Counted from the first letter of the stretch, positions 9,105 through 34,020 are shown. The stretch: DNA of 40,200 nt from a virus (IMGVR_UViG_3300001533_000263:1-40200); one strand, 5' to 3'. Numbers and translations are program-made. Notes: a model not told the origin generated them from the letters alone.

Positions 9105-9115
9105 ACTAACCCCCT

Positions 9116-9337: not shown

Positions 9338-9430
9338 CACTAACCCCCTTTCTTTTAAACAATGGACACTTTATTATTTTGTTTACAAGCCATTGTTTAC
9401 ATTCGTGTTTACATTTTAAACATTGTTCAT

Positions 9431-11150: not shown

Positions 11151-11470
11151 TATAAAAACCCCTTTATAAGTGTTCCAATTACAACAACAAATATTAGTGT
11201 ATATATCAACCTCTTTATAACTACATATTCTTTCTCTAAGGAATTTATCTTTTGCGTGTTTGTTCCACAAGGTAAATTGTTTAATAATTTAGCCAACGCT
11301 TTATCTTCTGCTTTAGAATTTATAAACTCTCTATTCAACCATTCCTGTAAATCTTTACCTCTTTTATTATGTTCTTCCCACTTAACCCTATTCTCGGTTT
11401 TTATTTCTGTTACCAGGTTCTTTAAGTTGTTAAACTGTTCGTTAAAATAAGTTGTTTCGTTGCCGTTCAT
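11150..11470 (-). CDS. Coiled-coil protein with C-terminal membrane anchor, 106 aa
   Basis: The N-terminal 80 residues are a long charged helix. The last about 20 (LIYTLIFVVVIGTLIKGFL) are a transmembrane segment preceded by Lys/Arg. The layout resembles XhlA-type haemolysin/holin partners, which anchor by a C-terminal helix. It overlaps the 3' side of the large virion protein gene by 4 bases. A lysis-related role is inference. Confidence 0.55.
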   Translation of the reverse strand: MNGNETTYFNEQFNNLKNLVTEIKTENRVKWEEHNKRGKDLQEWLNREFINSKAEDKALAKLLNNLPCGTNTQKINSLEKEYVVIKRLIYTLIFVVVIGTLIKGFL

Positions 11471-14400
11471 TTGTTTTCCTTTCTTATCATATCTCTTAAT
11501 AGTTTTTCTATTAAGCTTTTATTCATATAAGGAACATATCTTTTCTTCTCAGAAGAGTTCATTTTCTGGTATAAGTATAACTGTTCGTCATTACTTAGAT
11601 ATTTAAAAACCCTTACATCTTTAGGAAGTTTGGCATTTTCTGCAAAGGTTTTTAGGTTATATTTAAGTCTCCCTATTGTGTCTCCTTTTATGATTCCTTG
11701 TTTAAAAGCTGTAACTAAATCTTTATTCGTTAAGTTGTTTTCTTTTATCTTCTTTCTTAGTTCAAATTTCTTCTTTATCTTTTCCCATTCTGCACGAGTT
11801 AAGTCTCGCTTAAATTTACTTTCGTTTATATCAAAGATTTCTTTTTGCAGTTTTGTCCGGGTTACATACTTAGGTGCGGTAGAAAACCCTAAAAATGGAG
11901 CAACTTTTTCCCAGGAAGATGAATCAGGGTTGTACCTTAAATTTGTTTGTAATGAAGATATTGATATCGGTTTTTTCTTGAGAAAATAATCCATTACTTG
12001 CCCTACTTGTTCTAATACAGGTGCTTGAGGGTCTCTAATATCTACTCCGTAATAATCTTTGTTTCTTATAAATACATCTATCGCCTCTGATAAAGCAGGA
12101 CTCAATTTATGGCTTGCATATTTTGGAATACCTCTTATTATTCCATATTTACGAATAGCCTCTGTGCTGGATAAAAACTCTTTTGTCATAGCTGGGATTA
12201 CTACTCTTACCTCATTCCCTTCATCATCTATTTCTCCTGTAGGTGGTGCAATAAAATCTTTAGCTGTTTTAGGGGCTCGTCCCGCTACTAAATATCCTAC
12301 CAAAGAACCTACTCCTGCTATTGTAATAAGATAAGCTAATGTCATTAAATTTCTATCGACATATAGGGGGTCTTTTGATTTAGATTTTATGCTTTTAAGA
12401 TTACTTACTATATCTACAGGAGTTCCGCCAAATTGTCTTATTGTTCCCATATTCCAACCTAAAGATAAAGTTGATAATACACCTAAATCTCTTGCCCATC
12501 TATCCCAAAACAAGTTATCGTAAACCATTTGACCAAAATTGTAATCCATCAAATCCCAAGTTCTGCTCAAATATTTATCTACTTGGTCTGTTGTTGCGTT
12601 TGGATGGTTAGCCAACCAGTCGGAAACCAATTTGTAATAATTAGCTACCTTTAGTTTTGGAACATAGAACTCTAAAATAGGTTTCATTGAATACTCTAAT
12701 CCTAACTTTACAGCTCTTGGTATTACACCTATAACATTTTTTTTGTGGATAGCTTTCATAAATGCCTGTTTTGCTTTTACTTTATATATAGCAGGCATTG
12801 TCATACGCCCTCCACCTCTTATAAGATATTCACTTGCCCGTTTAGCCCATTCAGGAGCGTCTTTACCATAATAAGCGTTTTGTATTTGTTTTCCTTTTAA
12901 TATTGACACTAAGGGTTGAACAATAGCTGTACTTGCTTGTTCTATTGCCTTTCCTATATGCCCTCTCCCTAATGATTTCATAGCTAAAACACCCTGTATA
13001 GCTATATCGGAAGCTGTAACTTCAACTGCGTGAAATCCAGAAAGGTTTAATATATAAGAAACATACATATTTTTTGCTTGTAATGCCCCCTTCATAACAT
13101 CTCCAAACCAATTATCTAATTCATAAATTGAAGGTTGCAGTTTACGATTTATCAAGTTTATTATTTCCGGTTGTCCTTCAAAGATTCCAAAAGGGGTTTG
13201 GATAAGAGCTTTGTTTGGGTCTTTTTCTTGAGGAGAAACTTCTTTTAATACTCCTTGTTCCTGCATTCTTTTTAACATATCTGCGTGAGCTTTAGCTCTT
13301 AATGCAGAAACATATCTTGCAGTTACTAAAGATTCGGGATTGGTCGTTTTTAGTTTAAACCCCAATTCTAAACCTGTTTTTACTAAATCTAATCCCCTTA
13401 ACTTACTATACTTTTCTTTACCTATCCGTGTTTTATATTTATACAGAAAATCTTTAACTTTAGGAACATCTTCTCTTGCCCATATATGAGGAAAATAGTT
13501 ATCTATATAATTTATCTTTTCAGAAAGGTCTTTAGATAATTCATAAGCCTCGTCCAATATTTTTCTATACTCTTTGGCTAATGGTTCAAATTTAGAAGAT
13601 ATTTCACCTTTCTCCATCCCCATTATAAATGACAACTTTTCTTCTTCAGGCACTTTCTCCCAAAAAAGTAACCGTTTTTCAGAATCTTCGGCGAACTTTT
13701 CGGTCTGTTGAACTTTTCTTGCAAGAGACTGCCTAATAGTCATACCTGCCCTATACGCTTGCTTAGATGAACTCTCGGGAGCAAAAAAACTTCTAATAGA
13801 TTTACTCATACCTTTACCAGTAGAAATTACCTTTGTGGCAGCAGGTATAATATCTTCTTGAACAAACTTTTCGGGATATAAGGGAACTCCTAAGTGCATT
13901 TCTGTTGGTAAATCTTCTATTCTTTCTCCTTTCTCCCCTTGTGCCTGTTTCCAGATGTCGGTTAGTTGGGATTTGGGGTAATATCCAAACTCATTTATAT
14001 CATCACCTGCAAAAATAACATCTTTCGCCTTGACCTTAAATGAATATACTTTTTCTGGCGTATTTGGTTCAACGCTTTCCTGTGCATACGTTTTTGAAAA
14101 TGTGACCCAATCTCCAGGATTAAGTTGGTTCTGTCTTGTAGCCCTATAAACAGTAACCTCTGCCTCTGGCTTATTTCTTATTTTCTGCAAAACTCCCCAG
14201 CTTTCCCTTGCGGATTTATCAGTTTTTACATTTCTTCCACTTGCTATTGACCATTCAGGGTGTTCGTAAACATCTCTTGGTATTGCTTCTCCTTCAAGCA
14301 AATTATGAGCAGGTGGCATATCTTCATAAGTAGGTCTATGTGCCATTCCATAAGAAGGTTTTTCAAATTGTGCTTTCACAAACTCCTCAACCGTCTTACC

Positions 14401-15780
14401 CTCCGCTATGACTTTCTTGGCTTCTTGTATGAGGGACGGAGGCTTGATAACACTTTTTAAATCAACCCCAGGAGTAGCAGTTTTAGGCGGAGTAGCTTTG
14501 GGTGGGGTTTTAACAGTCTTTCTTAATGCTTCATCTAATTCTTGAACCTGTTTTTGTAAACCTTTGGTATTTCTATCAATAGTTTTTATATAATTAATTC
14601 TGGCTTTAGGAGATAGACCCCACTTACCTATACTTGCTATAGCTCTTTTACTTGCTTCTGCGTCAGATATTCCCGGAAAGTTTGATTTTATCTTTGCCTT
14701 TGCAGCTCTTAAATTCCAATCTTTTATTTCTTGTGATTCGTATGCCTGTGCAATTTCTTTAGCGTTGTATCCTTGTGTCAAGGCTGCTGTTATTGCATTT
14801 ATTGCTGCGTTTACATAATCTTCTGAGGTTAAAGGTTTACCTGGTTTTCTTGCCTTAGCAATAGAAAGAGTAGAAGAACCCACTAAAAGTCCTGCTAAAC
14901 CGCCTCTTTTTATGTTTCCTAAAGCGTCATCTATCTTACCACCTATCTTAGTTGCAGGGATAATCCCCCACGGAGCCCAAGTAGGAATACCCCATCCACC
15001 TTCTTTAGCTATTCTGCCAAAATTTATGTCCGTTATATCTTCTGCTTTAGTAAATTGTCGGGCAAATTCTTTTGTAGCTTCAATCCCGCCACCTATTAAA
15101 CCTCTTGATGCCATACTGCCTAATACTCGTGCTGCAGTAGGAAATGTTTCTTGTAACATAGGAATAGCACGAGAAACTTTAGGTCCTACACCTTTTGTGA
15201 AAGGACCAAAAAACTTTACTAAACCCAATGTATTTATTACATCTCCACCGCCCTTAGCTATACCCCAAGTCATTGGATATTTCTTTTGTAACTTTTCTGC
15301 TTGTTCGTCTTTAAACAGCTCCATAGTAGCACCTGTTAAAAGACCGGTTAAAGCTGTGGATACTCTTTCCTTTTGTTCTTTTTCTTTACCTATAATCTCG
15401 CCAATGTCAGTAGTCCCGTATTCTTTTTGAAGAACTTGAGGATTAAGTTGTTTTAATTGGTTGGCTTTAACTATATCTCCTTTTTCCTGTAACTTCTGCC
15501 CAATATCTAACTTACCTAAAGTTTTGGTAATTGCTCTTGCTTGATTTAAAACAGTGTTCACATTACCTGAAACATAATCCTGTGCTTTCCCAAAAAGGTT
15601 TCGTTCTTCAGGATAGTCCACTTGGTCGCTTTTTGCCACAGTAGAATAAGGAAGTTCCCTGCCCCCAAACTGTTTTTGTATTTGTTTGAAAGGGTTGTCT
15701 TCTGTTGGTTTATTTATTTTCAGAAAAGGGTTTTCTTCTTCTGAACGTTTTCTTTTAATTTCTAAAAAAGGATTAGCCAT
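11467..15780 (-). CDS. Large polyvalent internal virion protein with ART-like domain, 1437 aa
   Basis: The N-terminus has three NPF(L/K)xI repeats (ENPFLKINKPTEDNPFKQI), possible binding peptides. A Gly/Ile/Ala-rich region (about 140-330) could be membrane-active. Around residues 500-600 lies an ADP-ribosyltransferase-like segment: VTVYRATRQNQLNPGDWVTFSKTYA ... VIFAGDDINEFGYYP, the ART pattern of phage polyvalent proteins. The C-terminal third includes a FLSSTEAIRKYGIIRGIPKYASHKLSPALSEAIDVFIRNKDYYG segment typical of the large polyvalent protein-associated LPD38 type. Such proteins are carried in the virion and ejected into the host. Enzyme activity is inferred, not shown. Confidence 0.75.
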   Translation of the reverse strand: MANPFLEIKRKRSEEENPFLKINKPTEDNPFKQIQKQFGGRELPYSTVAKSDQVDYPEERNLFGKAQDYVSGNVNTVLNQARAITKTLGKLDIGQKLQEKGDIVKANQLKQLNPQVLQKEYGTTDIGEIIGKEKEQKERVSTALTGLLTGATMELFKDEQAEKLQKKYPMTWGIAKGGGDVINTLGLVKFFGPFTKGVGPKVSRAIPMLQETFPTAARVLGSMASRGLIGGGIEATKEFARQFTKAEDITDINFGRIAKEGGWGIPTWAPWGIIPATKIGGKIDDALGNIKRGGLAGLLVGSSTLSIAKARKPGKPLTSEDYVNAAINAITAALTQGYNAKEIAQAYESQEIKDWNLRAAKAKIKSNFPGISDAEASKRAIASIGKWGLSPKARINYIKTIDRNTKGLQKQVQELDEALRKTVKTPPKATPPKTATPGVDLKSVIKPPSLIQEAKKVIAEGKTVEEFVKAQFEKPSYGMAHRPTYEDMPPAHNLLEGEAIPRDVYEHPEWSIASGRNVKTDKSARESWGVLQKIRNKPEAEVTVYRATRQNQLNPGDWVTFSKTYAQESVEPNTPEKVYSFKVKAKDVIFAGDDINEFGYYPKSQLTDIWKQAQGEKGERIEDLPTEMHLGVPLYPEKFVQEDIIPAATKVISTGKGMSKSIRSFFAPESSSKQAYRAGMTIRQSLARKVQQTEKFAEDSEKRLLFWEKVPEEEKLSFIMGMEKGEISSKFEPLAKEYRKILDEAYELSKDLSEKINYIDNYFPHIWAREDVPKVKDFLYKYKTRIGKEKYSKLRGLDLVKTGLELGFKLKTTNPESLVTARYVSALRAKAHADMLKRMQEQGVLKEVSPQEKDPNKALIQTPFGIFEGQPEIINLINRKLQPSIYELDNWFGDVMKGALQAKNMYVSYILNLSGFHAVEVTASDIAIQGVLAMKSLGRGHIGKAIEQASTAIVQPLVSILKGKQIQNAYYGKDAPEWAKRASEYLIRGGGRMTMPAIYKVKAKQAFMKAIHKKNVIGVIPRAVKLGLEYSMKPILEFYVPKLKVANYYKLVSDWLANHPNATTDQVDKYLSRTWDLMDYNFGQMVYDNLFWDRWARDLGVLSTLSLGWNMGTIRQFGGTPVDIVSNLKSIKSKSKDPLYVDRNLMTLAYLITIAGVGSLVGYLVAGRAPKTAKDFIAPPTGEIDDEGNEVRVVIPAMTKEFLSSTEAIRKYGIIRGIPKYASHKLSPALSEAIDVFIRNKDYYGVDIRDPQAPVLEQVGQVMDYFLKKKPISISSLQTNLRYNPDSSSWEKVAPFLGFSTAPKYVTRTKLQKEIFDINESKFKRDLTRAEWEKIKKKFELRKKIKENNLTNKDLVTAFKQGIIKGDTIGRLKYNLKTFAENAKLPKDVRVFKYLSNDEQLYLYQKMNSSEKKRYVPYMNKSLIEKLLRDMIRKENK

Positions 15781-18681: not shown

Positions 18682-19952
18682 TTATCCATCCAAGGGATGC
18701 AGTCCAAGCATGACCCTTTTGATATCTGATTGGCTTAGGGCTTTGGAGAATATCATTGGGGAGTCTATTAAGCCATTGAAATTCCTATCTGCCATCGCTT
18801 CTGAAGCACCTATATATAATTTAGCATCGCTTGTTCCTGCTCCTTTAGCTAATTGTCTGTTATAACTATCTATTTCTGTTCCGTTCGTGTAAATTTTAGT
18901 ATAAGTGCCATTAGTAACTCCTACTATAAAAATCCATTCATCGGCTGTAACATCTGCAGAATCACTATCTGTTACACTACCATCAGTTGTAAAATATATT
19001 CTACCGTCTCTATGGACATATAGCCCATATCCTCCCGTTCCGCTAACACCAGATTCTTTAGCTAATATTCTTTGATAGGCATCACCAGTTAAAGTGGCTT
19101 TAACCCAAGCACATAAAGTTATATCTCCTGAAACTTTTAGAGTATCATTATTACCACAATCTATATAATCATCAGTCCCGTCAAAGCTATAACACTGTCC
19201 AAACTTTCCTGTGGTTAGAGATGCACCGTCAACGGTTCCTAAATTGTAATTATGAGAATCATCCCAAGCTCTACTTATCCAACTTGCACCGTCTATTGTG
19301 CCGTCATTACTATTCCCAGACGCATCATCTAGTGTTGTATTTTCTCCTTCATCCATTTTATACCAAGTAATAAGGTCTGTATCACTAACAGAATTACCAT
19401 TGTGAAATGCCTCTGCCTCACTTGAAGAAAGAACTCTTGAATAAATCCTCATATCATAAAGTTTCCCTGCGAAGTATCCGGCTGAACTTCCAGTCCACGA
19501 CCCCCCTCCCTTAAATGCACCTATCCTCCAATATCCACTATAATTTTGAGCACCTGATGCTGAACCTGTGCCATCAGATACACCATCCACATAGAGTATT
19601 AAATTAGTTCCATTAAATGTTGCACAAAAACTATGCCACTTTCCATCATTATAAGAAGTAGATGAAGTAGCTAACTTAACAGCACCATCATATACACCGA
19701 AAATCAATCTACCACTTGTATCTACATAAACATTCCTATCATGAGAATATGATGATTCTCCTGACCTTTGGTCCTCAAATCCTATTATCTTTCTTCCTGC
19801 TGTAGTAGTAGTATTAAAAAATCCACACAAAGAAAATGTCTGTGGATTAGTATATTGTGTTGTAGTATAGACATAATCATCAGTTCCATCAAAACTCAAT
19901 AAGTCAGCAGTTTTGTCACAACTATAATATGCTTTTAAGTTTGGTGTTATTA

Positions 19953-19956
<4 letters not shown>
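18682..19956 (-). CDS. Two-LamG-domain tail/fibre protein, 424 aa
   Basis: Two concanavalin-like (LamG/Laminin_G_3) jelly-roll domains in tandem. The first spans about residues 20-195 ([28 protein letters not shown] ... [15 protein letters not shown] ... [18 protein letters not shown]). The second spans about 245-420 ([33 protein letters not shown] ... [13 protein letters not shown] ... [17 protein letters not shown]). Each begins with SFDGTDDY and ends with an A-L-S/E helix. Such domains bind carbohydrates and are common in phage receptor-binding proteins. The start overlaps the collagen-like gene by 4 bases. Confidence 0.85.
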
Positions 19957-20786
<830 letters not shown>

Positions 20787-23854: not shown

Positions 23855-24700
23855 CTAAATATTCAAATAAGGATAATCGTTATCAACTATAACCCAAGTA
23901 GAAGGATAAAATATCGGTAAAGGACTGGTACTTCCAATGCTCAACCCTCTTTTCATACTCCAAGGGTTAGTTAATCCTGTTGTTGCTGTGTCGGTATAGG
24001 TATCTATATCTTTCATTTCAGAGGTTGTTTTGCCTGTTCCGCCATCTGATGAGTCTTGTCCTGAGGTTTCGGTGTCCCAAAAGGAGTCAGAAACTGTATA
24101 AGAATTATTAGCTACTAAACCACCGGCCTCCTCATTACCTTCAACACTTCCTGTTGAATAGCACTTAGAAATAGAACCTGTGTTTATACCAACTAAACCA
24201 CCTGCGTACCCCAAGCCAGCTGACAGAACTGAAGCCTTTGAGTAACAATTACTAATTGTCCCACTTCCATCATTAAGACCAACTAAACCACCGGCAACAT
24301 CATTACCTTTAACACTTCCTGTTGAATAGCACTTAGAAATAGAACCCTCAGACTCTCCAACTACTGCTCCAACGTAATAAAATCCAGTTATATCACATGA
24401 TAAAACACCTACATTTGAAATTTCTGAGCCCGAATCAGCATAACTAAACAACCCCACATAAATAGAATCTCTATCTATATATAAATCAGAAATAGTATGT
24501 CCATCGCCATCAAAAGTGCCTGAGAAGCCGTCAGAAGTATTCCCCAACGGTTCCCATCCCTCACCGCTATTAGCAGTAGACGAGGCATAGGTGTCATAGC
24601 CAGTAGAGTTTTGGTCTAAATCCGTTGTGAGGATATAGTCGCCTGCTAAGTTGTCTGCTATACCTGCTAAGTCTGCCCAGCTACTAATTTCTGTTGCCAT
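23855..24700 (-). CDS. GLUG-repeat tail/adhesion protein, 281 aa
   Basis: A start region of MATEISSWADLAGIADNLAGDYILTTDLD and GTFDGDGHTISDLYI is followed by four GLUG-type units. Examples are VGAVVGESEGSISKCYSTGSV, AGGLVGLNDGSGTISNCYSKASV, AGGLVGINTGSISKCYSTGSV and AGGLVANNSYTVSDSFWDTETSGQ. GLUG repeats form beta solenoids in IgA peptidase-like and other surface adhesins. In a phage, a receptor-binding or spike component is the likely role. Two of the units share identical ISKCYSTGSV stretches, indicating recent duplication. Confidence 0.8.
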   Translation of the reverse strand: MATEISSWADLAGIADNLAGDYILTTDLDQNSTGYDTYASSTANSGEGWEPLGNTSDGFSGTFDGDGHTISDLYIDRDSIYVGLFSYADSGSEISNVGVLSCDITGFYYVGAVVGESEGSISKCYSTGSVKGNDVAGGLVGLNDGSGTISNCYSKASVLSAGLGYAGGLVGINTGSISKCYSTGSVEGNEEAGGLVANNSYTVSDSFWDTETSGQDSSDGGTGKTTSEMKDIDTYTDTATTGLTNPWSMKRGLSIGSTSPLPIFYPSTWVIVDNDYPYLNI

Positions 24701-24702
24701 TT

Positions 24703-26208
24703 TTACTCCTTAATAATTACTCCTATACCGTCTCCGTAATATCCTACATCTTCAATGTATCTAAACTCAAGCATTCTCTTTTTGTTCAACTCTTTCCAAA
24801 ACTTCAATACCCCTAAGTGGAGTTTGTGGTTTGTGTGTATATCGTGTAATGCTACTATCTTGGCTAACGGAGAGTATAACTCATAATCTGTTTTAACCCC
24901 TTCGTAAGAGTGGTCTCCGTCTATAAATAATAAGTCTATCTTTCTGCCGTTTAGCCAGTTTTTAAGTTTGTTTAATGTTTCTTCTTTCTTGCTGTCTCCA
25001 TGTATAAAGTCATCACCCTTATATTTTCTTATATCAATTCCTTTATAATCAGCGTTAAACAACTCTTTGTAAAAATATCTCTGGTTTGCTTTTCTTAACC
25101 CTATCTCAACTACTACCGGTTTTTTTGGTAGCTTAGTCTTTAAAAAGTCTAAAAACATCTTGTATTCGTTATATCCTTGAGAAGGTTTGTGTTTCTCCCA
25201 CAGAATATCAAACTTGCTCTTTTCTAATAACTCACCAACTCTACTATCACAGGTCGCTTGGTTGTAATAACAATACTTCTCGCAATACCAGTATAAGAAG
25301 TTTCTTTGTTTCTCTTTGTCAAACCAAGTCAATTTAAGTGCGTCTTGTATCTCTGTTAGGTGTCTTAAATCATAAGTAACCCAATGATATTCCGGATAAC
25401 CCCAAGATATGATAGGTTTATCGTGCATCATCGCCTCAAACCCAGCACCGGAGTTAGCTAAGAATACACATCTTGCTTTCTCTAAGAAGTTATGTATATT
25501 ACCTCTACCTGTGTAAACAAAGACCTTATCGTCTATCTGGTCTAACTTTCTTGCTAATGCGGTTGAGAATTTAGTGTCTGTTGCGTCTTTACCGTCTGTG
25601 TAAGGGTGTAGTTTGACTACAATAGGTCTATTGCCTACTCTTACTAATTCTCTTATAACCGATTCTAACTTGTTCCAGTAGTTTCCGAAGTCGTATTCTG
25701 TTACTACCGAATCGCCACCGCATTGACCTATAACCAAGTAATAGTCGTCTTGTTTTATATCAATATCTTTAGTCTTAAAAGTAGCCCACTTTGAGGACTT
25801 ACTTTCTATCCAGTTTTTAACTTTTGTGTCAAAGAACTTATCGGTATTGTTACCCTCAAAATCAGGTTTATCGTAAGTAATACTTGAGTAAGGCCCGTAA
25901 CCTAAAGGGTCTAAAGTAGTGTGCCTTGCTGTCGGCACTGTCGGTTTCATAAACAATACCTTCTTAGCAGGCACTATATTGCCGATTAACTTAGTCTTGT
26001 CAGTATGATTATAAATCGCTAAGTCTATATCGTTTCTGTCTTTTTTAGGGTTATACACCCTTGATTGTAAACCTCTGCACCTGAAATGTTTATGCCTTAA
26101 TACCTCATACCCTCGTTTTCTTAAAGAATCAGCTAACCAGAGTGTTTGTTCCCGCCAGCCCTCTTTCATATCTGCAAATCTGTAATTCCAGAACAATACT
26201 TTCTTCAA
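24703..26208 (-). CDS. Glycosyltransferase-methyltransferase fusion, 501 aa
   Basis: Residues 1-330 look like a capsule-type glycosyltransferase of GT-B fold: KVLFWNYRFADMKEGWREQTLWLADSLRKRGYEVL, then VKLHPYTDGKDATDTK and ARCVFLANSGAGFEAMMHDKPIISWGYPEYHWV. The KpsC/KpsS-like signature is HP...NSGxGFEAM...G. Residues about 345-501 are a class I SAM methyltransferase of the Methyltransf_24 type (VVVEIGLRKANQ..., KIDLLFIDGDHSYEGVKTDYELYSPL...ALHDIH). Both act on sugars in known relatives. It closes the sugar cassette and overlaps the connector gene by 4 bases. Confidence 0.72.
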   Translation of the reverse strand: MKKVLFWNYRFADMKEGWREQTLWLADSLRKRGYEVLRHKHFRCRGLQSRVYNPKKDRNDIDLAIYNHTDKTKLIGNIVPAKKVLFMKPTVPTARHTTLDPLGYGPYSSITYDKPDFEGNNTDKFFDTKVKNWIESKSSKWATFKTKDIDIKQDDYYLVIGQCGGDSVVTEYDFGNYWNKLESVIRELVRVGNRPIVVKLHPYTDGKDATDTKFSTALARKLDQIDDKVFVYTGRGNIHNFLEKARCVFLANSGAGFEAMMHDKPIISWGYPEYHWVTYDLRHLTEIQDALKLTWFDKEKQRNFLYWYCEKYCYYNQATCDSRVGELLEKSKFDILWEKHKPSQGYNEYKMFLDFLKTKLPKKPVVVEIGLRKANQRYFYKELFNADYKGIDIRKYKGDDFIHGDSKKEETLNKLKNWLNGRKIDLLFIDGDHSYEGVKTDYELYSPLAKIVALHDIHTNHKLHLGVLKFWKELNKKRMLEFRYIEDVGYYGDGIGVIIKE

Positions 26209-26912
26209 ATTGTATCGTAACTCCTGTTACCCATAAATCTTTCTATTTTACTGATTCTGTAATTAGCTAATTTCCTTTGATAAGTTTGGTTAATCTTTAC
26301 ATATTCTTGTTTAATGAGTTTCCTTAACTCTGCCTCTGCCCTGTTTAACCACCAACTTGCTTTTTCATATTGTTTCTTGTAAGCAAATCCCTGACCTGTT
26401 GCATAAAATTCTAAATAAGTTGATATTGTAACGATAGACGGTGTATCACTATCATCACTTAAATCTGATACTTCTTTTTGATAAGGCATAGCGTAAGTTT
26501 CAGCTGTGTCCGGTGGCGGGTCTAACTTAATACTTCCCGCCTCAGGTAAAATTACATACCTCAAGGGGTTGCCTGAATCAAGTGAATCGTCAGAATAATC
26601 AGTAGCTCTGTTTTTCCACCAGTCTTTAATCTTGAATCTGTCTAACATGTGTCCGTTAGCTATGTCTGCTACAAATAACTCTTTACCAAAGTCTGTAATA
26701 CCTAAATCAGAAGAAAAAGAATATTCTGCTTGGTCAGCTACACTTTCAAAGGTGAAATCGTCATCTATTAAGTCAGCCCAATATGCTCTACGCCAGGCAT
26801 CTTGGTAAGCATCATTAACCCATACGCCGATAAGCGTATCTGTATCGTTAGATGTATCACAAATCATATTGCCTACGTTCGTCTTTATTGTGCTAAAAGT
26901 TTTACCTGTCAT
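26205..26912 (-). CDS. Head-tail adaptor/connector-type protein, 235 aa
   Basis: MTGKTFSTIKTNVGNMICDTSNDTDTLIGVWVNDAYQDAWRRAYWADLIDDDFTF resembles the helical start of gp6/gp4-like adaptor proteins (NxAYxxxxRR...W). The C-terminus is a helical region (GFAYKKQYEKASWWLNRAEAELRKLIKQEYVK) typical of connector subunits. It sits with another structural gene inside the sugar cassette. Role inferred from pattern and position. Confidence 0.6.
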   Translation of the reverse strand: MTGKTFSTIKTNVGNMICDTSNDTDTLIGVWVNDAYQDAWRRAYWADLIDDDFTFESVADQAEYSFSSDLGITDFGKELFVADIANGHMLDRFKIKDWWKNRATDYSDDSLDSGNPLRYVILPEAGSIKLDPPPDTAETYAMPYQKEVSDLSDDSDTPSIVTISTYLEFYATGQGFAYKKQYEKASWWLNRAEAELRKLIKQEYVKINQTYQRKLANYRISKIERFMGNRSYDTI

Positions 26913-26922
26913 TATTTACCCC

Positions 26923-27348
26923 TTATGCCATTTTAATATTAGTCCAAGTCCATTGAAAAGGTTTGCCCGGATACTCAAAGGTTATTGTAGATAAGTTGTC
27001 ATTACCTGTTCCGTCTGCGTCTGTGAATGTAGCTGTAACTACTTTAACCTCAACTGAAGTAGTATTGTCTTCTCTTACCCATAATGAACCAGCGTCTGCC
27101 TTTGCTGTTCCGTCTTCAAACACACCTAATTCAATGAATTTGGGGTCTGCTTCAATGGTTAATTTTCTCCCGTTTGCAAGTTCAATCGTTCCGCCTGTTC
27201 TGCCTATGTATTTTCCTGTTGTGCCTAAATCTTCTAAATATAATTTAAAAGATTCTGATGTCCCACTTATCGTTGTTGTCTGTCCGTCAATACATACCCA
27301 AGGTGAATTTGCTGTGTCTATTGTGAAAGTTCTCAATGCGTCTCCCAT
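26923..27348 (-). CDS. Beta-rich virion protein, 141 aa
   Basis: MGDALRTFTIDTANSPWVCIDGQTTTISG... GRKLTIEADPKFIELGVFEDGTAKADAGSLWVRED... TWTNIKMA. All-beta and polar, with the composition of a head decoration or tail-completion protein. No family assigned. An AGGAGG-type SD precedes the ATG at 27348. Confidence 0.5.
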   Translation of the reverse strand: MGDALRTFTIDTANSPWVCIDGQTTTISGTSESFKLYLEDLGTTGKYIGRTGGTIELANGRKLTIEADPKFIELGVFEDGTAKADAGSLWVREDNTTSVEVKVVTATFTDADGTGNDNLSTITFEYPGKPFQWTWTNIKMA

Positions 27349-27363
27349 TTTTTCCTCCTGTCT

Positions 27364-28113
27364 TTACTGAATTAACTTTTGTGCTATTAGGTGTATATCT
27401 GAATGCCCCATAAACCTTACTGATGAGTTATCCCTTGACATAATCACCTTAAACCCTACCTTCTCTACTTCTCTAACTAATGCCCTTTTTGAAAATAAAA
27501 TGTTATTATCGTCTTTCTGCCAATGTGCCCAATTAGCTACACCTTGTCTAAATATTGTATCAATATTAGGTGTAGATAAATATAAGACCCCTGTTGGTGC
27601 GAGAAGGTCATATATCTTACGAAGATAACCTAAGGGGTCGTATTGTCTTTCTAATGAATACTGAACCCATATTAAATCAAATAACCTTTTTTCTTCCTTT
27701 AGTTCTTCTTTTATCTCGTTATCTTGTATAGAGGGCGTAAAAGGATATAAAAAGATATCTCCTTTATATAAATTGTCTTTACCTTCTCCCTCTTTATCTA
27801 TACCCCAAACTAACCAACCTCTTTTTTCTAGTTCTTTTAAGGTTTCCGGAGAACGGGTATATCCTACTTGTAATACCTGTCTGCCGTAAGTAAGTTCTTC
27901 TATCAACGGTGCATATATCTTAACTCCGTGTCTTTGGTTGTTTTCTGTATCCTCTAAGTCTTCCTCTTTATGGTTAGGGTTAAACTCTTTTTGAAATATA
28001 ATCCCGCAAGGACATTGATACCATAAAGATTCTCCTCCTTTATGTTCTTTAATGTTGTAAACATAATTAGTTCCCCTTTTACAAATAGGACATTCTTTAG
28101 GTTCTATTGTCAT
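27364..28113 (-). CDS. Zinc-ribbon class I methyltransferase, 249 aa
   Basis: The N-terminal CPICKRGTNYVYNIKEHKGGESLWYQCPCGIIFQ is a CxxC/CxC zinc ribbon as in C-methyltransferases of sugar metabolism. A Rossmann SAM domain follows: QVLQVGYTRSPETLKELEKRGWLVWGIDKEGEG, then LFDLIWVQYSLERQYDPLGYLRKIYDLLAPTGVLYLSTPN. Motif I is altered (VGYTRS rather than xGxGxG), so activity is uncertain. It overlaps the GT9-like gene by 17 bases. Likely target is a sugar or glycan. Confidence 0.7.
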   Translation of the reverse strand: MTIEPKECPICKRGTNYVYNIKEHKGGESLWYQCPCGIIFQKEFNPNHKEEDLEDTENNQRHGVKIYAPLIEELTYGRQVLQVGYTRSPETLKELEKRGWLVWGIDKEGEGKDNLYKGDIFLYPFTPSIQDNEIKEELKEEKRLFDLIWVQYSLERQYDPLGYLRKIYDLLAPTGVLYLSTPNIDTIFRQGVANWAHWQKDDNNILFSKRALVREVEKVGFKVIMSRDNSSVRFMGHSDIHLIAQKLIQ

Positions 28114-29068
28114 TTTTAGCCTTTAATATTCTTTGGTATAAAGTTTCAGGTTTTATATCATACATACACCAGGAAGCACCTGTTACAAACTCGCAAGGAC
28201 ATTGAATTGTATGGTCGTAAATTAACCTAAAACAAGGAGAACAACTGCATCCGCTTTGTATTGAATAATCGTTCTTAAAATGTTTAGTTATGTTCTCAAT
28301 AGAAGTGTTTCCTAACAACCCTATCTTAGGTGTGTTAGTAGCACCTGAAGCGTGCAATATCCCCGTATCAGGCGAAACAACTAAATCTACTACCGAAGTT
28401 AATGCCATACTTACTTTCATGGGTATCTCACCGGCTAATTCTGTAAAATTCTTTTCCGGTAAAGATATAGTCTCTAACAGTTTACACTTTTCATCACCTA
28501 CGGTAATTATGTTTATGTTCGGTATTTTTTGTATCAAAGAACCCATTACATATTCAGTCCAGGGATAAGCCTTGTTATGTCCTGAACCTGATAAACACCA
28601 TAATAAGTTGTAGTTATCTTTTAAATATCCTTTAGCTTTTTCTATCTCACCATTGTTATATTCAATAACCGGATTATAATCATCAAACTTCAGATCTGAT
28701 ATTCTTTCAGTTTCTTCATAATAGTTCTTGTTACATTTAACCCTTCTTTCCTCTTTAGAATAAACGTATAAAGGTTGTGAAGGATGTAAAGCAAGATTAG
28801 TTTCTATGGATGATGTGAAATTCTTGAAATAATCAGGCTTAATCTCTTCTTTTAACTTCTCCCATTGTCTCGGTAAACCGTCAATAGGTGTATCTTCCTT
28901 GTGCATTATAAATTCATCTACAAAAGATGTGTTATCATAAACCTCTCTACCCCTGCTGTTTGTGTTAAATATTACATAATATCCTTCCTTTTTTAACTGT
29001 TTAAAAACAGGTGAAAGTATAATGGAATCTCCATAAGCTCCATATCTGATAATTAAGGCTTTCTTCAA
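28097..29068 (-). CDS. GT9-like (heptosyltransferase family) glycosyltransferase, 323 aa
   Basis: KKALIIRYGAYGDSIILSPVFKQLKKEG is the GT9 N-terminal signature (R-x-G-x-x-G-D). VDLVVSPDTGILHASGATNTPKIGLLG is the conserved DTG-x-x-H-(A/L) donor-binding motif. A unique Cys cluster (SGCSCSPCF...CPCEF) near the C-terminus replaces the usual end. Family members add heptose or related sugars to lipopolysaccharide cores. The start is TTG at 29068, overlapping the previous stop (TTGA). Confidence 0.78.
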   Translation of the reverse strand: MKKALIIRYGAYGDSIILSPVFKQLKKEGYYVIFNTNSRGREVYDNTSFVDEFIMHKEDTPIDGLPRQWEKLKEEIKPDYFKNFTSSIETNLALHPSQPLYVYSKEERRVKCNKNYYEETERISDLKFDDYNPVIEYNNGEIEKAKGYLKDNYNLLWCLSGSGHNKAYPWTEYVMGSLIQKIPNINIITVGDEKCKLLETISLPEKNFTELAGEIPMKVSMALTSVVDLVVSPDTGILHASGATNTPKIGLLGNTSIENITKHFKNDYSIQSGCSCSPCFRLIYDHTIQCPCEFVTGASWCMYDIKPETLYQRILKAKNDNRT

Positions 29069-29229
29069 ATATCTATCCCCACTGATTTGTTACCGTCTAA
29101 CCTTATTGTGTAAATCTCTAAACATTCAGGACATCGTTTGTAAAGTGTTTCAGTTGTAGGGTCTGAATAGTAATGTTGTAAATTACTTTTACATAACAAA
29201 CAAACGTCTGTGTCTTTATAAAGTTTCAT
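29065..29229 (-). CDS. Small zinc-ribbon protein, 54 aa
   Basis: ATG at 29229 reads MKLYKDTDVCLLCKSNLQHYYSDPTTETLYKRCPECLEIYTIRLDG. Two CxxC knuckles about 20 residues apart make a zinc ribbon. It overlaps both neighbours by 4-5 bases. It is one of several small Zn proteins embedded between the glycosyltransferases of this cassette. Unassigned. Confidence 0.6.
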   Translation of the reverse strand: MKLYKDTDVCLLCKSNLQHYYSDPTTETLYKRCPECLEIYTIRLDGNKSVGIDI

Positions 29230-29474
29230 ATTATATGCCAATGTAAGTGGTCTTTTACTTTCCTTTGGTTAAACCTAATCTTAACTTTACCAAACTTGCT
29301 ATACACAATTTGTAGTATAAATAAAACATCACTTAACTTTACGTTCATTTCGTGATGGTTATAAACTATCATCGGTTTACCGCAAGTCTTACAATCGGCT
29401 ATCCACCAGTCTTTTTCGTCAAGATACCATTTAGTTAATTTCTTTCTTTCGCAAAGTTCGCACTTATTGCTCAT
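29226..29474 (-). CDS. Zn-ribbon protein with C-terminal HxHxH-like end, 82 aa
   Basis: CELCERKKLTKWYLDEKDWWIADCKTCGKPMIVYNHHE gives a CxxC...CxxC ribbon with conserved aromatic residues. The C-terminus is KDHLHWHII, a His-x-His-like motif. The overall pattern recurs in metagenomic phage and bacterial proteins of unknown function, sometimes next to sugar genes. It is translationally coupled to the HIHYR gene (4-base overlap). Confidence 0.55.
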   Translation of the reverse strand: MSNKCELCERKKLTKWYLDEKDWWIADCKTCGKPMIVYNHHEMNVKLSDVLFILQIVYSKFGKVKIRFNQRKVKDHLHWHII

Positions 29475-29875
29475 ATCTTTTTTAAGGTATCTACCATTTG
29501 ATTATATTCGTCTTTGGTTAAATGTAGTCTTATATCCCTGTAATGTATATGGACTGAATCATCGTGTTCGTGTTCTACTCTGAATCTGTTAGTAAAATAA
29601 TCAGAATCTTTTTTCATATCATCTTTAAACCCCATCTGTATAGGAATAAAGTTTTTACCTTCTTCATAATTCTTTTTCTCCATAATATCTAAACTTGTTT
29701 TATACATACTGAACACTTTTCTGCAAAACTCGTCCCACTCTTTTCTACTAAACTCCAGTCTTATGTTTCTATAATGAATATGTAAGTTCTCGCAAACATC
29801 TCCCCATAATCCTCTGTGATAATATTGTCTTTTAGGTAACTCTGTTTCACCTATTACTTTTTTTACATTACCCAT
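29471..29875 (-). CDS. Protein with duplicated HIHYRxIRL motif, 134 aa
   Basis: Two copies of a short unit, ENLHIHYRNIRLEFSRKEWDEF (about residue 30) and DSVHIHYRDIRLHLTKDEYNQM (near the C-terminus), show an internal duplication. Each is a strand with HxHYR followed by a helix. Similar single units appear in proteins beside glycosyltransferase/ParB-like genes in phages. Histidines and arginine may bind an anionic ligand; function unknown. Confidence 0.55.
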   Translation of the reverse strand: MGNVKKVIGETELPKRQYYHRGLWGDVCENLHIHYRNIRLEFSRKEWDEFCRKVFSMYKTSLDIMEKKNYEEGKNFIPIQMGFKDDMKKDSDYFTNRFRVEHEHDDSVHIHYRDIRLHLTKDEYNQMVDTLKKI

Positions 29876-30986
29876 CTATAACCCAGTCCTCCCCGTGCTG
29901 ACAACCACCCCTACTATGTATCTCAATAGGTATTGTCTTATATCCTAATTCTTTAAAAGCTACATATCGTTTAAACCCATCTAATCTTTTGCCATAAGAA
30001 GTTACAGCTATTGGTCTTATTCTCTTGCCTTTTTTAATCAGTTCCTTAACCTTTTCAGCACCTTCCCGGTGTTCTTTGTCTATGTTCTCTATGTCGTGTC
30101 CTGCGTCATTAGGATTTATTAAGTCAATAGGTATTTCTGTTTTGCCCTTTTCTATTAGTTTCTTAAACATCTTTTCTTTTTTAGTAGGGTTTGACGCAAT
30201 AACCATAAACTCTTTTGCAAGATAGCTTGGTTCGTGTTTACTCATTTTAACTATAAACCCCAGCTTCTTTAACTCCTCAGTAAAACTTAACAAATCCCAG
30301 ATAATATGGTGGTGATGTAACATCCACATACCAAACTCTAAGGGGTTATTAAAATTTATAAAGAACGGGTCAGGCATAAACACAACCAATAAACCGCCTT
30401 CTGTCAGATGTTCTTTTAGTTTACTTATTGTTTTTAAAGGATAATGTAAATGTTCTATAACGTGAGACGCCCATATAACATCATACTTTTTGAGTTTAGA
30501 TAAAACCTTAATATCCTCTATATCCCCATAAATCAGTTTATGACCGTTAGGGTTGAGGTTTTTGTTTATATCTACACTTGTTGTTTTCCAACCGAGATGT
30601 TCTCTAATCAAGTCCTCTAAAAGCAATCTTCCACAACCTATTTGAAGAAAAGACTTAATCTTGGGTTTTAAGTTGGTAAGTCCTCTTACTACCCTTTTAA
30701 ACCTGAGAGCTATATTGTTCTCCTGGGCTTTTTTAATCCTCTCGCTAATCTCTTCTCTTTTGTGTTTGTCTTGTTTGTTATTTTCCCAATCGGTGTACCA
30801 GATATTTTTACAGTTACAAAAAGAATATCCTTTGTTAGGATGAACTTTAACCTCTCCTGTATGATAATCATAAGTTGTTCCGTTGATATACATCGGGTGT
30901 CCCATACCGCAGAAAGGACAAGACATCAGCTTGTCTTTAGGGTAACTAAGGTCTATCTTCATTCTTCTACTTGTGAAATCTATCAT
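29868..30986 (-). CDS. Zn-ribbon / SAM methyltransferase / ParB-like fusion, 372 aa
   Basis: Domain 1 (about 20-65): MSCPFCGMGHPMYINGTTYDY...SFCNCKN, a zinc ribbon. Domain 2 (about 110-265): SFLQIGCGRLLLEDLIREHLGWKTTSVDINKNL ... YDVIWASHVIEHLHYPLKTISKLKEHLTEGGLLVVFMPDP, a class I methyltransferase with a recognisable motif I (QIGCG) and motif IV-like stretch. Domain 3 (about 280-372): PIDLINPNDAGHDI...RPIAVTSYGKRLDGFKRYVAFKELGYKTIPIEI, a ParB/sulfiredoxin-like fold. The combination is unusual. Start may be 30986 or 30962. Confidence 0.7.
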   Translation of the reverse strand: MIDFTSRRMKIDLSYPKDKLMSCPFCGMGHPMYINGTTYDYHTGEVKVHPNKGYSFCNCKNIWYTDWENNKQDKHKREEISERIKKAQENNIALRFKRVVRGLTNLKPKIKSFLQIGCGRLLLEDLIREHLGWKTTSVDINKNLNPNGHKLIYGDIEDIKVLSKLKKYDVIWASHVIEHLHYPLKTISKLKEHLTEGGLLVVFMPDPFFINFNNPLEFGMWMLHHHHIIWDLLSFTEELKKLGFIVKMSKHEPSYLAKEFMVIASNPTKKEKMFKKLIEKGKTEIPIDLINPNDAGHDIENIDKEHREGAEKVKELIKKGKRIRPIAVTSYGKRLDGFKRYVAFKELGYKTIPIEIHSRGGCQHGEDWVIDG

Positions 30987-31968
30987 AGATTTTATCTACC
31001 TGTTTTAAGATTTTCTTAGTATCAAAATATACACATAAAGGATGACCGTCTTTTACCGGACAACCAATGTATTGATAAGGGCCCTTACAGCAAGGTGAAC
31101 AATAAGCCGGACTTTGTAAACTGTAATCATTTTTAGCGTATTTAGGATGGTTGTCTAAAGAAGCTGCTGTCATTAACTGTATTGTAGGTGTACCCCACAT
31201 ATTAGCCCCTACCATAAGTCCTGACTCCATACCGATTACACAATTAACGTGTTTTGCCAAAAGTAATGCCTGTCTAAATGGTTGATGTCCTGTTATTGTT
31301 CTTACTCTTTTGTCATCAAGCCATTTTAAGTTTTTACTTTCGTGTTCTCTGCTGCCTGTTGTAATGATTAAAGCGTCTTTATGCTTATCTAAAATCTTCC
31401 TTGCTACCTCTTCGGCTTGAACAAACTGTTTATGAGCAGATGTTCCGGCTACATTTATTAAGACAGTAAACTTGTCTTTGTATTTATCAATGTATTCCTC
31501 AACTGCCTTGTGTTCTTCGTCTGTAAAGTAAACCTCACCTTGCCATTTTCCTTGTTCTTCGGGAAACCCTGCTGATAATAAAGTCTGGTCGTAATAGTTA
31601 ATCTTAGAGAAAGAATCTCTATATTTCTGGTGCATATAATATTCCGGTTGTTCTTCCATTTTAAGTATTGCCGACTCTATCGTTCCGCCTAAAAAGAAAA
31701 TATTATCATACTCAAGGCTCATAATTTTCAGGTGTTTTTGTAAAGCGTGTCTTGTAGATACTGCTTTCTTTTCATTGCCTGTTAATAGTTCTGAAGGATA
31801 AATAGCCAAATTGTCAATGAACGGGTTATTTACTAATATTCTATAACCTTTAATGCCTGTTTCTACATCTACTTTGTCATACCCTTTATCTTTTAATAAG
31901 TGGGGTAGAAATGATAGATGTAAAATGTCTCCATAAGCCCCTAATCTGAAAATCAATGCTCTTTTCAT
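30967..31968 (-). CDS. GT9-like glycosyltransferase, 333 aa
   Basis: KRALIFRLGAYGDILHLSFLPHLLKDKGY matches the GT9 N-terminal motif. NVAGTSAHKQFVQAEEVARKIL and CVIGMESGLMVGANMWGTPTIQLM correspond to the donor-site region, with E-S-G in place of the usual D-(S/T)-G. The C-terminus carries a Cys cluster (YCSPCCKGP...GCPV), like the paralogue at 29068. The two share their layout and are probably old duplicates. Its ATG directly follows the U-tract of the terminator hairpin and has no SD. Confidence 0.78.
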   Translation of the reverse strand: MKRALIFRLGAYGDILHLSFLPHLLKDKGYDKVDVETGIKGYRILVNNPFIDNLAIYPSELLTGNEKKAVSTRHALQKHLKIMSLEYDNIFFLGGTIESAILKMEEQPEYYMHQKYRDSFSKINYYDQTLLSAGFPEEQGKWQGEVYFTDEEHKAVEEYIDKYKDKFTVLINVAGTSAHKQFVQAEEVARKILDKHKDALIITTGSREHESKNLKWLDDKRVRTITGHQPFRQALLLAKHVNCVIGMESGLMVGANMWGTPTIQLMTAASLDNHPKYAKNDYSLQSPAYCSPCCKGPYQYIGCPVKDGHPLCVYFDTKKILKQVDKIYDRFHK

Positions 31969-32010: not shown

Positions 32011-32433
32011 TTAGGTATCGCTTTGGACAAATCTTTCAATTAACTCTACTCTAGGTATTACTGTAGATACGTCTTGTGCCGTACCGTCCAATACTACACT
32101 AAGAGTGTCGTCAGCTGAAAGGTTAGTCTCTGTTACCGAACCGTCAATGTTAGTTTTCACCGCCTGAGTACCTGTAAGGGTAGCTGTTCCTATTTCTGTG
32201 AACGAGCCTGTTCCCCCGGTCTCATAACCTAAAACTACATCTCCCGGTGCTGCACCTGTACCAGCTGTTGTGGTAGCAAGGTTAAAACCTTTGATTGTAA
32301 CAGGATACATTAACTTAATCTTTGAATCTAAAGATGTTGCTGTACCTGTTCCATTCATAACCGCAGTCTCTGGTAACTCAATAGTTTTCCTTGACCCATA
32401 AGAAGGGTCTGAATAAGTTCTACCGTAGCTCAT
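32011..32433 (-). CDS. Head decoration/fibre-type protein, 140 aa
   Basis: MSYGRTYSDPSYGSRKTIELPETAVMNGTGTATSLDSKIKLMYPVTIKGFNLATTTAGTG... Beta-rich, Thr/Gly-rich, directly after the major capsid gene, with SD GGAGGGAATT. This fits a decoration or head-stabilising protein. Its stop codon lies in the 3-base loop of a small perfect inverted repeat, GATACC-TAA-GGTATC. Confidence 0.55.
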   Translation of the reverse strand: MSYGRTYSDPSYGSRKTIELPETAVMNGTGTATSLDSKIKLMYPVTIKGFNLATTTAGTGAAPGDVVLGYETGGTGSFTEIGTATLTGTQAVKTNIDGSVTETNLSADDTLSVVLDGTAQDVSTVIPRVELIERFVQSDT

Positions 32434-32443
32434 AATTCCCTCC

Positions 32444-34020
32444 TTATGAAGTTGTTACGTGAATAATTCTTGTTTCCCCATCATCACTAAAATCCCAAGT
32501 CTTGACCATACCGCCAAGATAGTACCAAGCAATTCCTTGGTCTCTACCAAAATCCTTAGGTAAATCAATTCTGATTTCCTCAGGAATCACAATACCTTCT
32601 CTGACTGCATCAGCACCAAAGAACACAGATTCCCCATAATCAGCATTTAAACTGTTGGAAAGAATATTTGTCTCTTCGATAAACCGTGTCCCATAATAAG
32701 TACCAACTTCGCCTGTAAACATCGGTCTTGCGTCTGTGTACTGAATCTTACTTTCAAAGTAATCATACAGTCCTCTAATAGAGTTGGTTGAAGCTATACA
32801 AATGTAATTCTGTCCGTCTGCTCTCGGAATATTAAGAGTTTTCATCCTATCTACAATATCCCTAACATTCTTATCGGACATATTAGCACCTGCATCTGTT
32901 CCACCTGCACCATTACTGCTAAAAACAGTTGAAGATGTGGTCTCACAAACTGCTTTATAATCTGATGTTTGAAACTGTGTTGCTGCGGCAGAATCCAAAA
33001 CCTTAGCCATATCATTCCTCAATACTGTTTTTACAATGTCAGGAACTTTAACTTCAGCTAAGACTTGACTCTTTAAAGTAAAAGGTACGGAATTTCCGTA
33101 CTCCTTCACTACCAAACTACCTTGCTTAATGGTGTAGTTGTTTTTAGGTATTGTCGATGTTTCCGACAATGTTCCGCCCTGTGTGGATATGTTACTAATC
33201 TTATCGAAAAGAACAGTATCCGAACGGTTTTTTCCCATAGCACCTTCCGGGTCAACGAATTGCCGAAATTTCATTCTTTGTGTTAGCTTACTGTCGCCAG
33301 TAAGAACGGACTATATCATCAAATTACCAACTTAATGGATAATTTGCCCTACGTGTAGTCTCTGAGGGGTTGATAGGTAATGAGTGTTTTGCTTCTTTTA
33401 ACTTCCTGATGAGTAGCCTTAAAATTACATCATCTGAAAGTCTTTTACTCCTGTCAAAGCAGTGTGCCATTTCTTCCCTTCGTTCTATAATCCATTTAAG
33501 GAATTTTGCCTGTTTTAATTTACCAGACAAATATGGCATTATTGCCTTCAAAAGCTTTTTCACTCTTCCTTTACCTTGAACAACAACAATAAGGGTATCA
33601 TTATGATTGCTCTTCTTTCGCTTGTTTATTTGGTAATAATAACCCACTCCTAAAGCACTTAGGATTTTGGTCGTTTTTTGGATTATTATTGCATCATTGT
33701 TGATTATTTGTATTCTTACGAATAAATTGATTCCCCTTCTTTTGTTGTTTCTACATTCTTCATTGTAGAATCGGGAAATTAAACACCCTTCTCCTTCAAT
33801 GATTCCAGCTAACCAAGCTACATCAACTTCCCTGCTGATTTTCTCCACCATAAACTTTTACCTCCTTGGGTGTTATGGATACTGAGACGTTCCAGCATAC
33901 AGTAAGGTTTTAAGCCGCCAATAAATTCAGCGGCTGTGCTGCGTAGCGTATCTTCTTAGAGAATTGGTCGGACCCTAAATATCCGCCAAGACTGTTGACA
34001 CTCCATATTTGTTGCGACAT
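32444..34020 (-). CDS. Major capsid protein, N4-gp56 family, interrupted by a group I intron
   Basis: Exon 1 is 34020-33929: MSQQIWSVNSLGGYLGSDQF...RYAAQPL, ending after CT. Exon 2 is 33275-32444: A, then MKFRQFVDPEGAMGKNRSDTVLFDKIS... Joined, they encode ...RYAAQPLMKFRQFVDPEG..., 307 aa. The continuous N-terminus of N4-gp56 family capsid proteins reads W-S-V-N-S-L-G-G...QPLxKFRQF. The junction restores frame exactly. Family features: a long early loop, a helical spine and the ITNRP-like C-terminal region. Without splicing, exon 1 would stop 36 codons in (…PLNLLAA) and exon 2 would lack its N-terminus. Confidence 0.88.
33276..33928 (-). ncRNA. Group I intron in the major capsid gene, 653 nt
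   Basis: Visible elements on the minus strand: P1, exon CCGCT pairing with GGCGG at a U.G splice wobble; P10, exon 2 AAT pairing with ATT just before GGCGG; P7 strands AGAGACTACACG (33363-33352) and GATATAGTCC (33317-33308); P9-like hairpin CTTACTG-GCGA-CAGTAAG with a GNRA tetraloop. The intron ends in G at 33276. The catalytic P3-P8/P4-P6 helices were not fully modelled. The open reading frame inside is a LAGLIDADG endonuclease. Confidence 0.85.
33324..33851 (-). CDS. LAGLIDADG homing endonuclease inside the intron, 175 aa
   Basis: WLAGIIEGEGCLISRF (about residues 13-28) is a single LAGLIDADG motif with the catalytic acidic residue. Strand patterns follow (FVRIQIINNDAIIIQKTTKILSALGVGYYYQ, LIVVVQGKGRVKKLLKAIMPYL). 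One motif implies a homodimer. It starts with ATG at 33851 after AAGGAGGTAAAAG. Its last codons run through the P7 strand and end 16 bases before the second P7 strand, so coding and ribozyme sequence overlap. It would cleave intron-less capsid alleles and spread the intron. Confidence 0.85.
   Translation of the reverse strand: MVEKISREVDVAWLAGIIEGEGCLISRFYNEECRNNKRRGINLFVRIQIINNDAIIIQKTTKILSALGVGYYYQINKRKKSNHNDTLIVVVQGKGRVKKLLKAIMPYLSGKLKQAKFLKWIIERREEMAHCFDRSKRLSDDVILRLLIRKLKEAKHSLPINPSETTRRANYPLSW

Follow-up and report, generated by a model that had tools for sequence, protein, structure and literature searches.

A capsid-adjacent glycosyltransferase and methyltransferase cassette with a candidate role in head glycosylation of tailed phages

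Genes at the capsid-adjacent locus

The window, which is the whole stretch of viral DNA analysed here, comprises 40,200 bases, the entire viral record, and carries a direct terminal repeat of 96 bases, so the genome is probably complete. Its genes include those for a terminase, a portal and adaptor of the SU10 type, a capsid protein (MCP) that appears to be of the N4-gp56 type, a DnaB-like helicase, an SSB and an ERF, and no integrase was recognised among the genome proteins scanned. On the minus strand, the genes follow in the order MCP, p140, GT9a, MTparB, the HIHYR protein, two small Cys/His proteins, GT9b, ZnMT, p141, the adaptor, a KpsS-like glycosyltransferase (GT)-methyltransferase fusion and the tail-region genes. 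The features are as follows:

24703–26208, minus strand: KpsS-like (Capsule_synth) glycosyltransferase fused to Methyltransf_24 (Pfam)
26205–26912, minus strand: head-tail adaptor, SU10 type (Pfam SU10_adaptor, 37.5 bits, cutoff 27)
26923–27348, minus strand: p141, 141 aa, Ser/Thr-rich (21%), conserved after ZnMT (homologues in the same place)
27364–28113, minus strand: ZnMT, Zn-ribbon methyltransferase (Pfam PF13489, Methyltransf_23, E 1e-15)
28097–29068, minus strand: GT9b, conserved GT9 glycosyltransferase (Pfam PF01075, 50.5 bits, cutoff 22)
29065–29241, minus strand: 58-aa protein with two CxxC motifs, putative Zn knuckle (ORF and motifs)
29226–29474, minus strand: 82-aa CxxC/HxHxH protein, putative Zn protein (sequence motifs)
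29471–29875, minus strand: HIHYR protein, 134 aa, two HIHYR(D/N)IRL repeats, putative small partner (sequence)
29868–30986, minus strand: MTparB, N-terminal Zn-ribbon (CPFCG..CNCK), class I methyltransferase and tentative ParB-like C-terminal tail (Pfam PF13489, Methyltransf_23, E 6e-15)
30967–31968, minus strand: GT9a, GT9-family glycosyltransferase, first cassette enzyme (Pfam PF01075, 28.7 bits, cutoff 22)
32011–32433, minus strand: p140, Ser/Thr-rich (26%), predicted beta-jelly-roll, candidate glycan acceptor or head decoration protein (co-inheritance with the first GT, model)
32444–33274, minus strand: MCP exon 2, probable N4-gp56 family (TIGR04387, just below cutoff; 39.8% identity to Vibrio phage D279)
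33275–33927, minus strand: probable group I intron within the MCP gene, ends approximate (Rfam RF00028, below gathering score)
33928–34020, minus strand: MCP exon 1, 31 codons, boundary placed from a relative without the intron (DNA compared with MSQQLWATDSLGGYLGNPKLSKKIRHLAQPLMKFRQF in L004)

The cassette is real and conserved. Every open reading frame named in a preliminary description of this DNA was present at its coordinates, and the overlaps of 4–20 bases reported there were recovered: 4 (26205/26208), 17 (28097/28113), 4 (29065/29068), 16 (29226/29241), 4 (29471/29474), 8 (29868/29875) and 20 bases (30967/30986). The p141 gene is flanked by gaps of 10 and 15 bases.

Both GT9-like enzymes of that description (28097–29068 and 30967–31968) scored above the curated Pfam cutoff and contain the RxGxxGD motif. 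Specifically, GT9a has an RxGAYGD motif, an ESGL..GTP region and a Cys-rich C-terminus, and L022, one of the nearest relatives, encodes a 69% identical orthologue in the corresponding position. In the GT9b alignment (A8), G10, A11, G13 and D14 are invariant; the conserved GxGD and PDTG/ESG motifs suggest that the GTs are active enzymes. GT9 membership is not proof of a heptose donor, since the NCBIfam cutoffs for the LPS heptosyltransferase I, II and III equivalogs were far from reached (best 32.2 bits against 134.6). A PDB profile search with GT9b yielded little apart from a weak match to a single GT9 structure, 3tov.

The two methyltransferase proteins (27364–28113 and 29868–30986) were likewise recovered, both as Methyltransf_23, but the ParB-like domain that had been assigned to the second is tentative, as its tail gave weak PHROG matches (ParB-like and nuclease, E about 0.007–0.009). 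ZnMT is 44% identical in L022 and stands after GT9b in most GT9b loci. MTparB has a 46% identical orthologue in L022, and its homologues in other GT9a-type islands are shorter (262–326 aa). In the fusion at 24703–26208, Capsule_synth was above its cutoff and joined to Methyltransf_24, as had been described; the NCBIfam KpsS equivalog cutoff was not reached (22.6 bits against 600). The fusion sits beyond the adaptor in a position that is not conserved, and it is absent there in L022.

The three small proteins (29065–29241, 29226–29474 and 29471–29875) carry the CxxC and His motifs attributed to them. The 82-aa protein had no Pfam family above cutoff, and the HIHYR protein matched DUF6686 below cutoff (E 1.4e-4); L022 has a 75-aa HIHYR homologue in the equivalent place. 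Of the two genes that had been called connectors, 26205–26912 is an SU10-type adaptor (63% identical in L022), but p141 (26923–27348) is conserved in position and gave no family match in Pfam or PHROG. Homologues of p141 stand in the same position in L024, L028, L030, L033, L110 and L111.

The MCP gene appears to be interrupted by a group I intron. Exon 2, taken without exon 1, scored 59.0 bits against TIGR04387 (cutoff 60, model positions 26–240). The intron matched the full length of the Rfam RF00028 model at 33287–33511 with 43.1 bits (gathering 50, E 3e-9), and the split reading frame of MCP agrees with this assignment. Moreover, the intron contains a LAGLIDADG ORF (33324–33851; PF00961, E 2e-4, 22.5 bits against a cutoff of 23.1).

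Conserved order and linkage to the capsid gene

The nearest relatives, L022 and L004/L021 (TerL 60% and MCP 76% identity), share the order MCP-p140-GT9a-MTparB-HIHYR-GT9b-ZnMT-146-aa protein-adaptor. Two further genes are present in L022, a stand-alone Methyltransf_24-like gene upstream of GT9b and an HNH gene between GT9b and ZnMT. The order common to the relatives is MCP, p140, a first GT, variable genes, GT9b and ZnMT. Because the gene set and its order recur in phages with MCPs 67–76% identical, they are not due to chance. A check for genes that are single and scattered in relatives found this conserved order instead, and the reading of a coordinated set was left standing.

From at least 548 relatives detected by a capsid-first search, 80 were retained. 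GT9a or GT9b was present in 9 of the 10 close relatives, here meaning those with an MCP identity of 60% or more, for which 4.5 kb or more could be read downstream. Among distant relatives (MCP 38–46%, same downstream length), a GT was found in 13 of 31; there it takes the form of a fusion, MT-GT9, with a length of about 520 aa, and a TylF/Methyltransf_24-like gene often accompanies it. GT9b is homologous to the GT9 half of this fusion (alignments A8 and A9; hhalign probability 100, E 3e-65). GT9 is thus not essential across the clade, since 18 of the 31 distant relatives were without a detected GT9. The sequence of L029, the tenth close relative, ends early, and other GT-like genes are present in it.

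GT-first searches of IMG/VR gave 53 loci with the GT9b alignment and at least 554 with the MT-GT9 alignment. The same MCP family was found in 121 of the 130 GT-first loci examined, and upstream on the same strand in 120, counts in which the loci are not independent because some are the same virus sampled twice. MCP and GT were mostly 0.3–5 kb apart. In eight of the nine loci lacking MCP, no more than 3 kb of available sequence precedes the GT.

Deposited phage genomes (50,697) gave no tblastn match to the GT9a and GT9b of the window, the GT9b of L024 or the MT-GT9 of L076, and the GT-methyltransferase fusion and MTparB matched these records in their methyltransferase parts only. A related MCP occurs in 32–40 of the same genomes. 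Four such cultured phages (Vibrio D279 and 1.232.O, E. coli PTXU04 and Bas95) have no annotated GT between MCP and adaptor; only small genes occupy that slot, joined in one phage by an HNH gene. Querying IMG/VR with the HIHYR protein or MTparB as single sequences returned nothing, and alignments were needed. Scanning genome contigs with MCP identified two loci, one on a Bradyrhizobium contig, where a related MCP was accompanied only by weak matches (E 2e-9) to the methyltransferase part of the GT model, and one in a Deltaproteobacteria MAG, where a related MCP and the GT are both present. When genomes from the two phyla were sampled, the GT was found in 8 of 399 and in 4 of 395, several with an adjoining MCP; these may be prophages or free phage contigs.

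Exchange of p140 together with the first glycosyltransferase

The part of the locus from p140 to GT9b varies between relatives. One set consists of GT9a and MTparB, another of GT4, a methyltransferase, GT4/GT2, a dehydrogenase-like protein and a hexapeptide transferase (Pfam), and some islands contain GT2, radical SAM/B12, Methyltransf_13/14 and GDSL genes. The island domains (GT4, GT2, GT9, methyltransferase, hexapeptide transferase and radical SAM) are a glycan-synthesis repertoire.

With island type assigned from the homology of the first gene, the type of p140 matched that of the island in every locus scored. In trees and distance comparisons of small samples (24 loci or fewer), the p140 tree required one change of island type in 100% of bootstraps, a value as low as this occurring in 0 of 500 shuffles. 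Seven changes were required on the MCP tree (shuffles average 8.2), eight on the GT9b tree, in which one row (L034) was mis-picked, and four on the portal tree of 14 rows. Within types, with remote lineages removed, pairwise distances of p140 and the first GT were correlated (r 0.85 for type I, n=11; r 0.76 for type II, n=9; p 0.0002 each), and those of p140 and MCP gave r of −0.14 and 0.06. GT9b and MCP distances were correlated with r 0.75 (n=17, p 0.0002). p140 is therefore inherited with the first GT and is uncoupled from MCP, and GT9b follows MCP. The joint transfer of the neighbours p140 and first GT could be plain linkage; however, distance alone fails to explain why p140 pairs with the GT rather than with MCP, because the MCP gene ends 11 bases before p140 starts.

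p140 homologues have about 132–145 aa with 17–28% Ser and Thr, and the window copy has no predicted transmembrane stretch. Predicted models of both p140 types, of moderate confidence (pLDDT 76 for the window copy and 78, pTM 0.72), are all-beta with a similar strand order. In Foldseek, both types weakly matched the capsid asymmetric unit of cyanophage Pam1 (chain 7eel_H, TM about 0.4), and type I also weakly matched phage tail fibres and TNF/C1q-like folds. Judged from these models, a role as a head decoration protein is a reasonable but provisional assignment for p140, helped by the place of its gene beside MCP.

Interpretation and comparison with known systems

Several observations point towards the virion: the cassette keeps its place and is linked to MCP, p140 is inherited together with the first GT and GT9b together with MCP, no membrane segment is predicted in the cassette proteins, and no integrase was recognised. 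We consider it probable that the cassette makes a methylated oligosaccharide and attaches it to the phage's own head, and the best reading of p140 is that of an exchangeable acceptor paired with its first GT. The first enzyme, which is GT9a here and of GT4 type in other relatives, would act late in infection, transferring a sugar from a host nucleotide sugar onto p140 in the cytoplasm. The GTs and methyltransferases of the exchangeable part would extend and then methylate the glycan, and MTparB and the small proteins may assist or methylate. The conserved GT9b-ZnMT pair would add and methylate a sugar on a constant part, either MCP itself or a shared piece of the glycan. p140 would be located on the virion, with p140 or MCP as the glycan acceptor; the sugars used and the order of these steps are those we infer. 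The benefit is probably masking of the particle or altered adhesion.

More tentatively, the locus may act as a phage "capsid serotype" locus, in which a decoration protein and its dedicated initiating GT are recombined as a unit between phages, inside a conserved capsid-GT9b-methyltransferase backbone, and each lineage wears a different methylated head coat, like the exchange of bacterial O-antigen genes. We rate this reading as slightly less likely than not.

The main rival is late modification of the host surface, whereby LPS, capsule or another glycan is altered so that superinfection or the binding of progeny to debris is blocked. Loci for surface polysaccharides typically carry GT9, Capsule_synth/KpsS-like, GT4, GT2 and hexapeptide domains such as these, and the GT beside the structural genes of Gratiaviridae was so read by its authors (PMC8008677). 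Nevertheless, the GT is linked to the capsid gene and co-inherited with the capsid-adjacent p140, no transmembrane protein is predicted in the window cassette and few are in the islands of relatives, and no integrase was recognised, so we regard this explanation as unlikely. The preliminary description had offered a virion glycan or host-surface conversion; the MCP linkage in 121 of 130 loci and the co-inheritance of first GT and p140 favour the former.

Alternatively, p140 could be a glycan-binding head protein with a TNF/C1q- or CBM-like fold, matched to a glycan that the first GT builds on another molecule. The same co-inheritance is expected in that case, and TNF/C1q-like, CBM and lectin structures are among the Foldseek matches of p140. 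These matches are weak, however, and an acceptor would be expected to be rich in Ser and Thr and encoded immediately ahead of the GT, as p140 is, which makes a lectin role rather improbable.

A further explanation is that the head-tail insertion site gathers unrelated surface-glycan genes through homing endonucleases, with no role in the virion. The HNH and LAGLIDADG ORFs in the MCP gene, the HNH gene inside the L022 island and the highly variable content agree with this, but GT9b keeps its place, sequence and MCP linkage over wide divergence with invariant motif residues, and we give such neutral cargo very little weight. Least probable of all is hypermodification of phage DNA bases by the GTs and methyltransferases, because the linkage is to capsid genes, no family for modified-nucleotide synthesis (thymidylate-synthase-like, dCMP hydroxymethylase, base kinase, TET/JBP) was found among the window proteins scanned, and, to our knowledge, GT9 and Capsule_synth are not among the known DNA glucosyltransferase families. 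On its side are the weak match of the C-terminal part of MTparB to a DNA methyltransferase PHROG and the frequent proposal that phage GTs act on DNA (PMC10202952 and PMC12619734).

If head glycosylation is correct, many uncultured tailed phages, represented in IMG/VR by at least 554 stretches with the GT, would build diverse glycan coats of their own from the head operon, and capsid glycosylation would extend from mycobacteriophages to widespread environmental phages. The islands would offer a natural, directly testable series of acceptor-GT pairs and a source of new protein glycosyltransferases, and such GTs would not need to be read as host-metabolism or DNA-modification genes.

Among known systems, the bacterial GT9 heptosyltransferases WaaC, WaaF and WaaQ share PF01075 and the GxGD and D/E-x-G motifs with GT9a and GT9b, but the cassette GTs fall far below the NCBIfam cutoffs, have a C-terminal Cys cluster and belong to a phage head operon. 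The gtr serotype-conversion operons of temperate phages also encode GTs, with a membrane flippase and a bactoprenol GT, near the attachment site. In contrast, the cassette has no predicted transmembrane stretch, no flippase or bactoprenol GT gene was recognised, and there is no integrase among the proteins scanned. The serotype-conversion and DNA-modification readings were set aside because no partner genes for them were recognised. Chloroviruses and giant viruses are eukaryotic NCLDVs; their capsid fold and GT families are different, and their genes are scattered. Like the cassette, they encode their own glycosyltransferases, which serve capsid glycans such as those of PBCV-1 Vp54 (PMC9614988, PMC4691112 and PMC11571054). 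In Gratiaviridae, GT-AAA-HipA genes lie between the portal and capsid genes, so a GT is similarly embedded in structural genes; these are gut phages, however, with kinase and ATPase neighbours, and modification of the host capsule or wall is inferred by the authors (PMC8008677).

No description of the locus was found in open-licence papers. As far as could be searched, the earlier statement that no such phage system has been described is right about this arrangement, but virion glycosylation as such was reported in mycobacteriophages, among them Che8 and Rita (Freeman et al. 2023, as cited in passages of PMC11256854 and PMC12619734). Both systems have phage-encoded GTs, here with Pfam GT9 and Capsule_synth above cutoffs. 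Mycobacteriophages are actinobacterial phages in which, according to the same passages, the glycans are on capsid and tail proteins and no exchangeable pairing of acceptor and GT is mentioned; here, the tie of the GTs to virion genes is genomic. In Maravista, the GTs are near the 3' end of the genome (PMC11256854), unlike their place beside the capsid gene here. Since virion glycosylation is known in mycobacteriophages, the novelty here would lie in its modular, head-locus form.

Probable introns in the capsid gene

A single capsid gene, encoding the N4-gp56-type major capsid protein (MCP), appears to have been invaded by introns repeatedly in the window and in the related IMG/VR loci L022, L082, L036 and L039.

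Window, 33275-34020 (minus strand): MCP gene interrupted by a probable group I intron (Rfam E-value 3e-9), which carries a LAGLIDADG ORF
L022, 1617-3238: MCP gene holding an insertion with an HNH ORF, not at the site of the window's intron
L082, 5323-7574: MCP frame broken into three or more segments; HNH-like and LAGLIDADG ORFs present
L036, 6210-7597: MCP gene, grouped with the cases above
L039, 6411-8701: MCP gene, likewise grouped with them

Variation around the glycosyltransferase island

The gap between the conserved glycosyltransferase gene GT9b and the Zn-ribbon methyltransferase gene was occupied by an extra ORF in two separate loci, an HNH ORF in L022 (7674-8183) and a Cys-rich, possibly HNH-like ORF in the related locus L110 (~7950-8480). 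Homing endonucleases might drive island exchange. In L036, a 474-aa hydrophobic protein (8024-9445) stands in place of the usual glycosyltransferase island between GT9b and the gene at the position of p140 (the Ser/Thr-rich gene following MCP). This protein, which had no Pfam match, is probably a multi-pass membrane protein and might be a membrane glycosyltransferase.

Other proteins of the window

A 398-aa protein (1976-3172) carries a long (Y/H/D)SQL repeat run followed by a DUF6745 domain, and other frames of the repeat DNA are also open. A pentapeptide-repeat-like protein is encoded at 3732-4415 (repeats of 13 protein letters, not shown). The 1437-aa protein at 11467-15780, without a Pfam family, lies where an ejected internal virion protein is expected. 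Additionally, the tail region (18682-20786 and 23855-24700) encodes collagen-like GPT-repeat, double LamG and GLUG-repeat proteins, which are likely fibre or adhesion proteins.
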